From: Rhodobacteraceae bacterium DSL-40
GTDB taxonomy: Bacteria; Pseudomonadota; Alphaproteobacteria; Rhodobacterales; Rhodobacteraceae
NCBI GenBank assembly: GCA_003258405.1
Contig: QKPN01000003.1
Coordinates: 186,001 to 250,000, forward strand
DNA length: 64,000 bases
Direction: 5' to 3'
In this document: positions 54,791 to 60,619 of the stretch, piece after piece
Layout: each line of letters begins with the position of its first letter
How positions within the stretch are numbered: the first letter of the stretch is position 1
Notes under the pieces: generated by a model
Seen by the model: the letters and a program-made list of their open reading frames with translations, nothing else
What the model was told of the DNA's origin: nothing
Databases searched by the model: none
Position numbers and translations under genes: made by a program

Positions 54791-56131
54791 TCAGGCGAAG
54801 CGCATCACTTCCGCCTCGATCTCGCCGATCACGCTGTCGAGCAGCGCAGGATCCTCGCATTCGCCCATGATCCGCACCAGCGGCTCCGTGCCCGACTTGC
54901 GGATCACCAGCCGCCCGCAGCCATTGAGCCGCGCCTCACCCGCCTTGATCGCGGCCTGAACGCTTGCAGCTTCGAGCGGCGCCGCCCCCTTGTGGTAGCG
55001 CACATTGGTCAGCACCTGCGGATAGGCGGTGAAGACGCGCGCGAGCTCGCTCGCAGGACGCCCGGTCTCGACCATGGCCGCCAGGAACTGCAGCCCCGCG
55101 ATCAGACCGTCACCCGTGGTGACATGATCGGTCATCACGATATGCCCCGACTGCTCGCCGCCGAGGTTGTAGCCGCCGCGGCGCATTGCCTCGACCACAT
55201 AGCGATCCCCGACAGCCGTTCGCAGCAGGCGGAGCCCCTTCCCGCTCAGGTGGCGCTCGAGGCCGAGGTTGGACATGACGGTCGCAACCAGCGTGTTCTG
55301 CGCAAGCTGCCCTGCCGCAGCCCAGCGCTCGGCAATCAGCGCCATGAACTGATCGCCATCGGCGAGCGTGCCGTTCTCGTCAATGATGAGGACACGGTCG
55401 GCATCTCCATCAAGACAGATGCCGAGATCGGCACCATGGGCACAGACCGCCTCCATCGCGGCCTGCGGGCGGGTCGATCCGCAATCCTTGTTGATGTTGT
55501 AGCCGTTGGGATTGACCCCGATCTTCACCACCTCGGCACCGAGCTCCCAGAGCACTTCCGGAGCCGTCCGGTAGGCCGCACCGTTGGCGCAATCCACCAC
55601 GATCTTCAGCCCGTCGAGCCGCAGCCCGCGGGGCACCGTGGTCTTCGCGTATTCCATGTATCGCCCGCGGCCATCGTCGATCCGGGTCGCCTTGCCGATC
55701 TCCGAAGGTTCGGCGAGCCCGGGCGCCTCCGCCATTGCAGCCTCGATCGCCTCCTCGGCGGCATCCGACAGCTTGAACCCGTCAGGCCCGAAGAACTTGA
55801 TGCCGTTATCCTCGTAGGGATTGTGCGAGGCGGAGATCATCACGCCGAGATCGGCGCGCATGGAGCGCGCGAGCAACCCGATTGCAGGCGTCGGCACCGG
55901 CCCGACGAGAAAGACATCCATGCCCACGGAGGTAAAACCCGCGGTCAGCGCGTTTTCAAGCATGTAGCCCGAACGGCGTGTGTCCTTCCCGATCAGCACC
56001 CGGTGTCCGTGATCGCCGGTGCGGAAATACCGCCCTGCCGCCTGCCCCAGCCGCAGTGCAAGATCCGCGGTCATGGGATGATCGTTGGCCCGCCCACGTA
56101 TACCGTCGGTGCCAAAAAACTGCCGTGCCAT
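54791..56131 (-). CDS. glmM: Phosphoglucosamine mutase
   Basis: Interconverts glucosamine 6- and 1-phosphate on the way to UDP-N-acetylglucosamine for peptidoglycan and LPS. It has 446 residues from the ATG at 56131 ([13 protein letters not shown]). The phosphoserine is in [17 protein letters not shown], the Mg loop is [14 protein letters not shown], the sugar loop GGEQSGHIV, and the phosphate-binding end is [12 protein letters not shown]. It lies 5 bp after folP, a usual alphaproteobacterial pairing. Confidence 0.96.
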
Positions 56132-56136
56132 GTGCC

Positions 56137-57159
56137 TCAAGCCTCCTGGGTGAACCCGTTCAGGGCCTCCCAGAGAGACACGGCCTGCCGGGTTTCTGTC
56201 ACATCATGAATACGTAGCACCTGCACGCCCTGCCGCAAAGCTTCGAGCGCCACGGCGATCGACCCCGGCATCCGCCGATCGGGCGCGGCCTCACCCGCAA
56301 TCGTACCGATGAAGCGCTTGCGCGACACCCCGAGCAGGATCGGGCAGCCGAGCCCGTGAAAGATCGAGAGATTGCGCAGCAGGACAAGGTTGTGCTCCAG
56401 CGTCTTGCCGAAGCCTATGCCCGGATCGACCAGGATCCGGGAGCGCGAAATGCCCGCAGCCTCGGCTGCCCGAACCATGCCCTCCAGGGCGTGATAGACC
56501 TCGAGCAGGACGTCATCGTATTCCGGCGCGTCCTGCATCGTCTTCGGATCGCCGCGGGCATGCATGAGACAGACAGGCATGCCACGCTCGGCTGCGAGAC
56601 CGAGACTGTGGGCGTCATGCGTGAGGGCCGACACATCGTTGAAGAGATCCGCCCCGACCTCGAAGGCCGCGCGCGCAACAGCGGCCTTGCGCGTATCGAC
56701 CGAAACCGGAGCGGCAATTCCACCGGCCCGAAGCGCACGGATCACCGGCACCACGCGGGCGATTTCTTCCGCTTCGGGAACCTCGTCCGCCCCGGGCCGG
56801 GTCGACTCCCCGCCGATGTCGATGATGTCCGCCCCACCCTCGACCACACGATGCGCCTGGGCGAGCGCATCCTCGAGCGCGAGATGCCGCCCGCCATCGG
56901 AAAAGCTGTCCGGCGTCACATTGAGAATGCCCATGAGGCGCGGCCGCTCGAAGCCAAGGCCACAGATCTGCGCGCGAGGCGCGGTAAGGCGCAGCCGCAC
57001 GGTTTCGGGAAGGACCGAAACCGGCGCGAACTTTGGTGCCTGACCGAATTCATGCAGCGCGACACTGTCGAACCAGAGCGGCCCTCCGGCCAAGGACAGC
57101 GCCTCGGGCGGCCTCGGTCCGTTGCTCCGGACCAGAGGGCGGAAGCAGATCGGCATCAT
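56137..57159 (-). CDS. folP: Dihydropteroate synthase
   Basis: Joins p-aminobenzoate and dihydropterin pyrophosphate in folate synthesis. It has 340 residues; about 75 N-terminal residues precede the core, as in many Rhodobacterales forms. The two signatures are [15 protein letters not shown] and [12 protein letters not shown]; the Lys/Arg loop is [10 protein letters not shown]. The start overlaps the stop of gph by 4 bp, so it is coupled to it. Confidence 0.95.
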
Positions 57160-57827
57160 GCGCGTTCCGGCTCCGCCCCCAGAACCTGCCGCACCAGCCC
57201 CGGCAACTCGTCGAAATGCTCGAAGATCGCCACGGCGGGCAGGCTGTCGAGCGGCACGTGGCAGTAGCCCCTGGCATGGAGCAGAAAGGGAACTCCGGCC
57301 GCCGCTGCGGTTGCGGCATCTGTCTCGCTGTCACCGACATAAACCACTGGCCCCTCCGGAAGCTGATCCGCGGCATGCCAGAGCATGGCCGGATCCGGCT
57401 TCAGGACATCGAGGCTGTCGCCACCGGTAAACCCATCGACGGGCGGTCGCAGATCGAGCGCGGTCAGGATCGCCTCGGCCGGTGCGTTGGATTTCTGCGT
57501 GCAGACGGCGAGCCCGTGGCCATCCGCCGCGAGGGCGGCAAGCGCATCGCGAACGCCCGCATAGGCCTCGGTACCGGTCACGGGATCGGCAAAGTAGATC
57601 TCGCGATATCGCGCAAGGCAAGCCTCATGACCCACGCCCGGCACGCCGCCCGTGGCCGCGAGCACCCGTTCGACAAGCTTGGAGATCCCGTTGCCGACAA
57701 ATCCCATCACCTGCGCTGGCGGCAACGGATCACGGCCGAGTTCCGCGAGCAGCGCATTCGCCGCGGCGGCGAGGCTCGGCACCGAGTCAACCAGCGTGCC
57801 GTCGAGGTCGAAAACGATCCGGGCCAT
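57156..57827 (-). CDS. gph: Phosphoglycolate phosphatase (HAD family)
   Basis: Removes phosphate from 2-phosphoglycolate, a product of RuBisCO oxygenation and DNA repair. It has 223 residues. HAD motif I is FDLDGTLVDS at 5-14, motif II is AVCTQKSN, and motif III/IV is PDPAMLWHAADQLPEGPVVYVGDSETD. A cap domain lies at about 16-80. It is first in gph-folP-glmM. Other HAD substrates are possible. Confidence 0.88.
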   Translation of the reverse strand: MARIVFDLDGTLVDSVPSLAAAANALLAELGRDPLPPAQVMGFVGNGISKLVERVLAATGGVPGVGHEACLARYREIYFADPVTGTEAYAGVRDALAALAADGHGLAVCTQKSNAPAEAILTALDLRPPVDGFTGGDSLDVLKPDPAMLWHAADQLPEGPVVYVGDSETDAATAAAAGVPFLLHARGYCHVPLDSLPAVAIFEHFDELPGLVRQVLGAEPERA

Positions 57828-58057
57828 TACCGGCCAACCTTGCTGAAACAGAACACGACTTCAGACTCCCCAAGCCATTTCACGGACAGAGTGCAAGAAG
57901 GGCTCTCGGCTTCCAGATAGATCGCAGTGCCTCAGCGCCCCTTCAGCCAAAGCACGTAGGCCCGGAGGGAGTTCGGGGCAATACCTCCTTTGGCCGCTAT
58001 CGCTTCTCGAGGTGCGCGCGTGTCACGACCCAGGGCAGTGGCATGACAGAAGGCAGG

Positions 58058-58609
58058 TCAAACCGCCTTCCACTTGATCGAGCAGCCGATCGATGCTGTC
58101 TGAGCCTCCGGGCCATGGCCGGTCTCAGCAACCTGGCGCATGGCCGGGTAGAGCTCCCGTCTTGCGTCCGGTTTGGCCCTGCGGCCGCTGTCATCGAGCT
58201 GGCCGCGATACTGCAACTCGAGATCCGCGTTGAAGCCGAAGAAATCCGGCGTGCACTCCGCGCGATAGGCGCGCGCCACGACCTGATCCGCATCGTGCAG
58301 ATAGGGAAAGGAGAAGCGATGCGCCCGCGCGAACTCGCCCATCTTCTCGAAGCTGTCCGCAGGATAGGCCGAGGCATCATTGGAGCAGATCGCCGCGACG
58401 CCAATACCGAGAGCCTTCAGATCCTCGGCTTCCGCCCTCAGCTTGTCGGCAATTGCCAGCACATAGGGACAATGGTTGCAGATGAACATCAGCAGGAGCC
58501 CCTTCGGCCCCTTCAGGTCCTCGAGACGCCAGAGCCGGCCTTCGGTATCCGGCAACGCGAACCCAACGGCCCTCCAGCCGAAATCGCAGACAGGTGGGAT
58601 GGCGGCCAT
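58058..58609 (-). CDS. Thioredoxin-like (AhpC/TSA-type) protein
   Basis: A 183-residue redoxin of the kind annotated as thioredoxin family protein. The active cysteines are C44 and C47 in FICNHCPYV. The following ICSNDASAYPADSFEKMGEFARAH and AECTPDFFGFNADLELQYRGQLDDS are typical of this group. No signal peptide is seen, so it is probably cytoplasmic. It is preceded by the first FolB-type gene at 9 bp. The 230 bp after it, to gph, hold no supported gene. Confidence 0.88.
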   Translation of the reverse strand: MAAIPPVCDFGWRAVGFALPDTEGRLWRLEDLKGPKGLLLMFICNHCPYVLAIADKLRAEAEDLKALGIGVAAICSNDASAYPADSFEKMGEFARAHRFSFPYLHDADQVVARAYRAECTPDFFGFNADLELQYRGQLDDSGRRAKPDARRELYPAMRQVAETGHGPEAQTASIGCSIKWKAV

Positions 58610-58618
58610 GGGAAGCTC

Positions 58619-59575
58619 CTATCCTGCGGCGGCAAGACGGACGAGCTCTTCCGGCGCTCGGGCGTGGCAATCAATCTCGTCTTCGTCATCACCGAACTCC
58701 GCTTCTCCAAGGAGAAGCAGTTCGCCACCGATTTCCTGTGCGAGCCACGCCGCAAGCCCGGCCGGATCGCTTGCATCGGGCAGATCCGCGGCCTTTGCCC
58801 CGGCCAGCATATCGTCGGGAGCCCAGATCGGCTTGATCCCGCTCGCAAGCGCCCATTCGATCTCGGCCCGTGTCGTGGCTACCTGGAACCGCGGATCATG
58901 GTCCGTAAGGGCCCACGCCGCCTGTTCCACCGCCAGCAGCCCGATCCTGAGCTGGGCATTGCTGGCCGGCGACGGCTGTGGGACCAGAGGAGCAACACAG
59001 ATCACGCAGGGATAGGTCCACTCCGCGAGCGCATTGCACCAGTCATTTCCCCGCAAACCCGATAGCGTCGAGGCAGGCAGGTAGGCAACGAAAGGTCTGG
59101 GTCCGGCGCGCAGTTCGAGCGGCGCCTGCCGGACATTCATCAGTCGTCGCGGCTCCGGGATCGCCCGGCGCCGCTTGATCTCGACACCGGCGGCGCCCAT
59201 CTCGCCACCCAGCTTTTCGACCTGAACGCGGACCTGCACGGCACGCGCATCCGCCAGACACGCCCTCGCCACGCCTTCGGCGAGCGCCTCGATCAGGGGA
59301 AACGGCCCCTTCTCCAACACACTGTCAATTGCATCGACGATCGTGCGGTAGGACAGCACGTGCTCCATCGCATCCGTCTCGGAAGCTGCGCTGTGCACCA
59401 CTTCCAGAACGATGTTGAAACGCACGGTAACGGCATCCGCCTCGCCCGACGTCGCATTGCCGATATGGGCCTCCCGGAGGAACTCGCGTACGGAAATGCG
59501 ATCCAGAGAGCCTTCCATCGGCAGAACTCGCGAACTCACGTCCGGAAGACCGAAACTGCTCAGGAATTCGTCCAT
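58619..59575 (-). CDS. FolB-type dihydroneopterin aldolase with extra C-terminal domain (copy A)
   Basis: A 318-residue protein. Residues about 20-140 have the dihydroneopterin aldolase/epimerase fold (DRISVREFLREAHIGN, VLSYRTIVDAID, LIEALAEGVARACL, VRVQVEKLGGEMGAAGVEI). Tyr and the catalytic Lys are kept, but the residue aligned with catalytic Glu22 of the S. aureus enzyme is Gly, with a Glu one place later. Residues about 150-318 form an additional domain with IKPIWAPDDML, shared with copy B. GGAGG precedes the ATG. This copy may have lost or changed aldolase activity. Confidence 0.78.
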   Translation of the reverse strand: MDEFLSSFGLPDVSSRVLPMEGSLDRISVREFLREAHIGNATSGEADAVTVRFNIVLEVVHSAASETDAMEHVLSYRTIVDAIDSVLEKGPFPLIEALAEGVARACLADARAVQVRVQVEKLGGEMGAAGVEIKRRRAIPEPRRLMNVRQAPLELRAGPRPFVAYLPASTLSGLRGNDWCNALAEWTYPCVICVAPLVPQPSPASNAQLRIGLLAVEQAAWALTDHDPRFQVATTRAEIEWALASGIKPIWAPDDMLAGAKAADLPDASDPAGLAAWLAQEIGGELLLLGEAEFGDDEDEIDCHARAPEELVRLAAAG

Positions 59576-59674
59576 GGATCCTCCGGGGTGCTGGCGCAGA
59601 CACGAGAACACATCATCACGAAATGTGAACGTATTGCAACTCTCGCAGGCATCCCGCCAGCTCCGGATCCCACC

Positions 59675-60619
59675 TCAGGGCAACGGAAGCCCGGGACGGG
59701 CCGGATCGAGGCGAAGAGCACCGGCGTCTTCAGGCAGATCCGCAGCCGCTTCGGCTGAAGCGATCAGCAGCCGCCCGTCCAGTCGCCGAGACAACCAGTC
59801 CGCAAGCGCAACCGGGCGCGATGCGTCCGGTGCCGCGGGATCCCGTGCCGCCTCGATCATCCGCGCGGGCGCCCATATCGGATGCAGCCCGGCCTCTATC
59901 GCCCAGTCGAGCTCGGTCCGCGATGCAACCACCTCGAAGCGCGCATCCCGGTCCGCCAGGGCCAGCGCCGCCTGTTCGATCTCGAGATAGCCGATGCGCC
60001 GCGACTTGTTGCTGCGCGCCGCCGCGACAGGCTGGTCCGCCCCGATGCAGATGATCACTGGCCGGCTGCAGGTCACCACGGCATCGAGCCACGCCGCCGC
60101 CCGCGGGCCATCGAGAGCATCCCGGCCAAGAAACAGTACATCGGCATGGCTCGGCGGCGCATCGGGCTCCGGCGCGCGCGCATGCAGACGCGGCGTCTCG
60201 GCCCCGATCTGGCTGCGGACGATTTCCACCCCGAGCGCCCCGGGAATCCGGTCGAGCTTCTCGACACGGACAAACGCGCGGAGCACCCGAATATCTGCAA
60301 GGCAGCCGCGCGCGATGCGCTCCGCGAGCGTTTCCAGAAGGTCGAGGCGCTCGGCGTCGAGAATGCGATCGATCGCAGAGGTGATCGTGTCGTAGGAAAC
60401 CACCTGATCGACATCGTCGGCCACGGCCGCAGCGTGCTGCATGACCTCGAGCACCACGTTGAACCGCAACCGCTGCTCGACGCCACGCTCGCTGGCAAAG
60501 GCTCCGATCTCGGCAAGACGCACATAGTCCCGCACGGAGATCCGGTCGGTCAGCACTCCGGAATGCGTAGCAGACGCACGCAGATGCAGTGCGCCGAAGA
60601 CAGTCTCGGTATCATCCAT
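59675..60619 (-). CDS. folB: FolB-type dihydroneopterin aldolase with extra C-terminal domain (copy B)
   Basis: A 314-residue paralogue of the next gene, similar along its whole length. It keeps the full FolB catalytic set: the Glu in GAFASERGVEQ, Tyr in VVSYDTITSAID, and Lys in VRVEKLDRIPGALGVEI. It is thus the more likely true dihydroneopterin aldolase for folate synthesis, with folP 2.5 kb further along. The C-terminal part (HPIWAPARM, then VALADWLSRRLDGRLLIA) has a pattern weakly like amino-acid-kinase-fold proteins; its role is unknown. The ATG at 60619 is preceded by a weak ribosome site. Confidence 0.85.
   Translation of the reverse strand: MDDTETVFGALHLRASATHSGVLTDRISVRDYVRLAEIGAFASERGVEQRLRFNVVLEVMQHAAAVADDVDQVVSYDTITSAIDRILDAERLDLLETLAERIARGCLADIRVLRAFVRVEKLDRIPGALGVEIVRSQIGAETPRLHARAPEPDAPPSHADVLFLGRDALDGPRAAAWLDAVVTCSRPVIICIGADQPVAAARSNKSRRIGYLEIEQAALALADRDARFEVVASRTELDWAIEAGLHPIWAPARMIEAARDPAAPDASRPVALADWLSRRLDGRLLIASAEAAADLPEDAGALRLDPARPGLPLP

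Follow-up and report, generated by a model that had tools for sequence, protein, structure and literature searches.

Analysis of the window, the whole 64,000-nucleotide stretch of Rhodobacteraceae bacterium DSL-40 (contig C114 of genome G000 in our sample), revealed two adjacent minus-strand genes that each encode a FolB domain followed by a second domain, hereafter the C-domain. Copy B (59675..60619) encodes 314 residues with the ordinary active-site residues of FolB; its FolB domain covers residues 25–136 (60212..60547) and its C-domain residues 157–314 (59678..60151). After 99 bases it is followed by copy A (58619..59575), a protein of 318 residues in which a FolB-fold domain with an altered active site (residues 25–136, 59168..59503) precedes a C-domain at residues 159–318 (58622..59101). 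The frame of copy A consists of 318 open codons with coding-type base composition by codon position, and a GGAGGA sequence ahead of its ATG (59579..59584) may serve as a Shine–Dalgarno element; no promoter or terminator match was found between positions 58000 and 61000. On the same strand there follow genes for an AhpC/TSA-family protein, directly downstream of copy A (58058..58609), a HAD-family phosphatase (57156..57827), FolP (Pterin_bind; 56137..57159) and a GlmM-type phosphoglucosamine mutase (54791..56140).

The two proteins align with 40% identity over 291 positions (E 2e-52), so their likeness is not due to chance, and both exceed the Pfam FolB (PF02152) cut-off of 31.8 bits, copy A with 58.1 and copy B with 70.6. 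Neither reaches the TIGR00525 equivalog cut-off of 72.15 (copy B 66.2, copy A 42.1). An earlier note, made from the letters of the window and their open reading frames, had described tandem FolB paralogues of 318 and 314 residues that share the motif PIWAP-x2-M; both open reading frames are in place, and the motif occurs as PIWAPDDM in one copy and PIWAPARM in the other. Two related loci (L050 and L051) carry the row MeaB, cell-wall hydrolase, CAP protein, folB, AhpC/TSA, folP, glmM, with AhpC/TSA in the same place after folB. Each has a single folB, which indicates that the extra copy in the window is a gene added to a conserved row.

Distribution of the Fused Gene

The length of these proteins, which the earlier note had found unusual, is real and is not special to the pair: it is the rule in the family. 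FolB was matched in 130 of 149 family genomes, and in 123 of these 130 the best match lies in a frame of at least 277 codons; one of these long frames (G127) is a FolB–FolK fusion. Of 196 genomes sampled from the order, 192 gave a match to a profile of the C-domain, all of one family (Rhodobacteraceae), and only the genome of the window gave two. Within the genus of the window a match was obtained in 8 of 11 genomes, and again only this one has two. Across the family, two FolB matches occur in 6 of 149 genomes including this one, and in the other five the second match lies on a separate contig and scores 36–49 bits. These weak second FolB-like genes are L199–L202 and G098:C132:1005-1331; the one in G105 is about 1.4 kb from FolK.

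The folP gene lies within 3.5 kb downstream of folB in 72 of the 75 loci with enough sequence, and the order folB–folP–glmM in Rhodobacterales is already in print in a passage of PMC6335563. The long fused gene is therefore the folate FolB of this family. FolK was found in 137 of 149 family genomes, that of the window included, and the C-domain was for this reason rejected as a substitute for FolK (HPPK).

Departures from the fused form were also observed. Single-domain FolB proteins with no C-domain nearby are encoded in G101 (L196, 1598-2020, 141 residues) and in G090 (L198, 1476-1865, 130 residues), the latter in the same gene row, between the cell-wall hydrolase and pgp–folP–glmM; the C-domain is thus not always needed. 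In three family genomes FolB adjoins FolK or is fused to it (L003 in G127, fused; L004 and L034 in G083; L033 in G017), an arrangement that differs from the other family genomes and looks like replacement of the native gene. The C-domain is shortened and divergent in one genus group (g24; L188 in G023, 880-1710), where E is about 1e-16 to 1e-21, most genomes having 1e-40 to 1e-73.

Identity of the C-Domain

Pfam had no match over the C-domain of either copy, the Pfam AA_kinase model touched 1 of 41 C-domain members (E 0.15), and a PDB sequence search with the C-domain profile returned no match. A search of the open-licence literature by title and start of abstract found no paper on the domain. 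In AlphaFold models of the two copies (pLDDT 87.6 for copy B and 86.0 for copy A) the best solved-structure match was MfnE (7qrh) in both cases, with Z 16.1, rmsd 2.9 and 154 aligned residues for copy B and Z 16.6, rmsd 2.8 and 154 aligned residues for copy A. The next matches, from Z 12.7 and 13.8 downward, were UMP kinases, aspartate kinase and the molybdenum storage protein, all of the amino-acid-kinase fold.

A profile–profile comparison (hhalign) agrees with this result: the C-domain matched a set of 11 standalone MfnE-like kinases with a probability of 98.7% and E 2.5e-16 over 142 columns. The standalone kinases came from a class-wide profile search and all lie outside the family. One of them matches the NCBIfam MfnE-like model with 74.4 bits, below the cut-off of 300 for that model, and is located amid methylofuran genes (a flavoprotein, a dihydropteroate-synthase-like protein, 4-HFC-P synthase and an ATP-grasp protein). 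Orf21 is given as the bacterial homologue of MfnE in a section of PMC8141765. On fold and profile match, the C-domain is a homologue of MfnE/Orf21, the methylofuran-synthesis enzyme with the amino-acid-kinase fold. The earlier note had proposed a comparison of the second half with this fold, a hint that these results support; the half that it had called unknown is indeed shared by both copies and now has an identity.

Homology does not extend to the catalytic apparatus. None of the four kinase motifs tested is kept in any of 79 fused domains, and the glycine loop K-x-GG, GGG-x-F/Y-A/S and TSD-S/T are gone from all 79; in the standalone kinases three of the motifs are present in 11 of 11 and the fourth in 9 of 11. 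The C-domain is also about 55 residues shorter (median 163 vs 217) and has conserved motifs of its own, WAP and RTExDW. Because no tested kinase motif survives in the 79 fused domains, the C-domain is by its sequence a pseudokinase, and it probably lacks kinase activity. The methanopterin marker Mch was found in none of the 149 family genomes, that of the window included, and an MfnE-like query gave no match in the latter. Relative to MfnE/Orf21, [5-(aminomethyl)furan-3-yl]methyl phosphate kinase (7qrh; NF040622), the C-domain thus shares the fold and profile homology but is without the kinase motifs and the C-terminal part, is fused to FolB, and occurs in a family sample that has no methanopterin marker. 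Evidence for a pterin-linked job of the extra domain, as the earlier note had suggested, was not found; its ancestry lies in a family of furan-phosphate kinases, whose motifs it no longer carries. The arrangement recalls bifunctional FolB–FolK (Streptococcus pneumoniae 2cg8, and L003), in which a FolB domain likewise precedes a second domain. There, however, the second domain is the working folate enzyme HPPK, whereas here it has an unrelated fold.

The Active Site of Copy A

Copy B has all the tested active-site residues: Glu44, Tyr76, Glu96 and Lys121 correspond to Glu21, Tyr53, Glu73 and Lys98 of the E. coli enzyme, whose contact list was taken from a section of PMC4176595. Copy B also resembles FolB (PF02152) in fold, sequence and the neighbours folP and glmM, and is most likely, judged from these residues, a working FolB. 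Both copies differ from that enzyme in the extra C-domain of about 158 residues, and copy A also in the loss of its substrate loop.

In copy A, Tyr76, the pterin-anchoring Glu96 and Lys121 are kept. Gly44 stands at the position of the glutamate, a replacement that the earlier note had read from the sequence. The change is far wider than this one glutamate. The loop at residues 39–50 (59426..59461, minus strand) reads GNATSGEADAVT vs GAFASERGVEQR in copy B, and the two align without gaps, Glu45 of copy A being paired with Arg45 of copy B and not with the glutamate. At the positions of E. coli Val17, Tyr18, Glu21 and Gln26 copy A has N, A, G and V, where the family has A, F, E and Q, and its substrate-contact set is incomplete, with Gly and Val for Glu21 and Gln26. 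The substrate-contact Glu and Gln and residues 123–126 near the catalytic Lys, all lost in copy A, show no variation among 31 unbiased family sequences. Copy A does keep the positions of Glu73 and Lys98 and the residues donated by the neighbouring subunit, Ser52 and Tyr53 in E. coli numbers (Ser75 and Tyr76 in copy A). Parts of PMC4176595 and PMC9937910 describe FolB active sites as formed by two adjacent subunits; in the former, Lys and Tyr are the catalytic residues and Glu73 has a role in binding, and the latter names Tyr, Glu and Lys as strictly conserved in DHNA.

The divergence is confined to one domain. Against 31 single-copy family sequences, 25 of the 59 conserved FolB columns are changed in copy A and 1 in copy B; in the C-domain the changes are 6 of 27 and 8 of 27, respectively. 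The leave-one-out maxima among the 31 sequences themselves are 3 FolB and 10 C-domain columns. A second count used ancestral columns, defined as those in which L042, L043 and L044 agree. Here copy A has changed 38 of 83 FolB columns, copy B 8 and four other genus members 9–13; of the C-domain columns copy A has changed 12 of 50, copy B 15 and the four genus members 12–17 of 49–50. With seven outgroups, FolB changes restricted to copy A outnumber those restricted to copy B by 32–37 to 2–8, and the corresponding C-domain counts show no significant difference (binomial p 0.24–1). Branch lengths gave the same picture for FolB: end branches in the FolB-only tree are 6.89 for copy A and 0.36 for copy B. 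In the C-only tree they are 1.04 and 1.22, longer than those of the nearest relatives, L042 (0.33) and L043 (0.36), so some relaxation of the C-domain may have occurred in both copies.

By column counts, then, only the FolB domain has been rewritten in copy A, and its C-domain has changed no more than those of its relatives. The genome itself is not fast-evolving, as its neighbour genes show: folP gives 0.66 and 0.67 to L050 and L051, which give 0.63 to one another, a normal neighbour-gene distance. Complementary degeneration, in which copy A would keep the C-domain and copy B the FolB domain, was considered and rejected. Raw C-domain identity to L042 and L043 pointed towards it, with 0.53 and 0.50 for copy A and 0.46 and 0.45 for copy B, but since the difference between the copies in this domain is not significant (p 0.24–1) we claim only the loss in copy A.

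Origin of the Pair and of the Fusion

In the full-length tree copy A stands weakly beside L042 and not beside copy B (support 94/47), and sisterhood of the two copies is not rejected (AU p 0.393). Given this weak placement and the AU result, a duplication within the species and a slightly older one followed by losses are not separable, and either is compatible with the tree.

The source of the C-domain was approached through the standalone kinases. In 8 of the 11 kinase loci the MfnE-like kinase gene is immediately preceded by a FolB gene of the same strand; the frames overlap or are 4 bases apart in seven of the eight, and are 306 bases apart in the other. Methylofuran genes were present in the one folB–kinase cluster checked. 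FolB was observed within the methylofuran gene cluster of several Alphaproteobacteria outside the family (L205:2668-8549). No MfnE-like kinase was found near the FolB loci with the 30 highest scores in the class sample (one query, 1.5 kb flanks). Descent of the fused FolBs from the cluster FolBs finds no support in the FolB tree: a tree constrained to unite the 24 fused with the 8 cluster FolBs is worse by 44 log units (AU p 0.0625). Grouping the nearest cluster FolB alone with the fused FolBs gives AU p 0.235. Fusion of neighbours and acquisition of an mfnE copy by a resident folate FolB fit equally well.

Interpretation

We propose, with about an even chance of being right, that copy B is the aldolase and that copy A, a FolB-fold pseudo-aldolase, has been kept because of its C-domain and may join copy B in mixed rings. 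The family ancestor would have had one folB beside folP, whose product joined dihydroneopterin aldolase to a pseudokinase of MfnE/Orf21-type descent, and in the lineage of the window this gene would have become the tandem pair. In copy A the loop around the substrate side chain (Glu44, Gln49 and the residues beside them) would then have been lost, while the FolB fold (Z 15.9 to 1sql), the hydrophobic core and the half-site lent to the adjacent subunit (Ser75, Tyr76) were kept, with a C-domain about as constrained as in relatives. Because active sites span two subunits and the donated half is kept, copy A could still sit in a ring. Mixed FolB rings of this kind may adjust how many active sites are present, or how many C-domains there are and how they are arranged; the C-domain would then serve for binding or docking and not as a kinase. 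Since the C-domain is under ordinary constraint, copy A, which is known from this single genome, is most simply explained as serving copy B in a structural or regulatory capacity.

The main rival, which we consider unlikely though far from negligible, is decay: copy A would be a duplicate that is becoming a pseudogene, in which constraint on the FolB domain has been lost and the rest is intact because the duplication is recent. Strong acceleration in one copy alone is what decay predicts, and among the 8 genus members with a match copy A occurs only here, so no shared orthologue attests to long retention. A neutral copy would, however, be expected to be broken by the time its FolB domain has fallen to 48% identity with its paralogue, and copy A retains an open, coding-type frame behind its GGAGGA sequence. 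Its C-domain is no more altered than those of four genus members, and the changes in its FolB domain are selective, with 34 of 37 hydrophobic columns kept and 14 of 30 conserved polar ones. Because Tyr, Glu and Lys are all kept, copy A may still be active, and an aldolase with altered preference for another pterin side chain would account for rewriting confined to the side-chain-gripping loop, Lys and Tyr being credited with catalysis and Glu73 with binding. We regard this as quite improbable in view of the loss of the contact Glu and Gln and of residues 123–126, invariant in the family.

The earlier note had inferred a duplication followed by a new role, perhaps as an epimerase. Duplication with asymmetric divergence in the FolB domain of copy A is borne out; a FolX-like epimerase is very improbable. 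Pseudomonas aeruginosa FolX is the second PDB match of copy A (E 5.4e-4; E. coli FolB, 1.2e-4), and the two have the stretch EHxLxYRTI in common. The FolX model NF008418, however, gives copy A 29.3 bits and copy B 31.3 against a cut-off of 152, so copy A is not the more FolX-like of the two, and FolX keeps the Glu and Gln-type loop residues that copy A has lost. That the C-domain is still a kinase, acting on a pterin or furan phosphate, is hardly credible: the amino-acid-kinase fold and well-conserved motifs such as WAP and RTExDW would suit an enzyme, but the three kinase motifs are missing throughout the 79 domains, the domain is short by about 55 residues, and FolK is encoded separately in this genome.

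If copy A is, as we favour, a pseudo-aldolase partner of copy B, a wider history can be put forward tentatively, and we think it somewhat doubtful as a whole: the folate FolB of Rhodobacteraceae would have captured a pseudokinase of methylofuran-pathway ancestry, which then took on regulation or docking, and in this lineage duplication would have made copy A a dedicated non-catalytic carrier of this module, in what would be the first indication that it functions independently of aldolase activity. That copy A has lost its active-site loop and yet keeps the extra half hints that this half has a job of its own. For annotation, a Pfam match by itself is poor ground for calling copy A an aldolase. 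The analysis gives an identity to a domain without a Pfam match that is carried by an essential-type folate enzyme across a large bacterial family. If the C-domain is regulatory, copy A would be a natural separation-of-function variant, and the family would control folate at a point different from those used in model bacteria.
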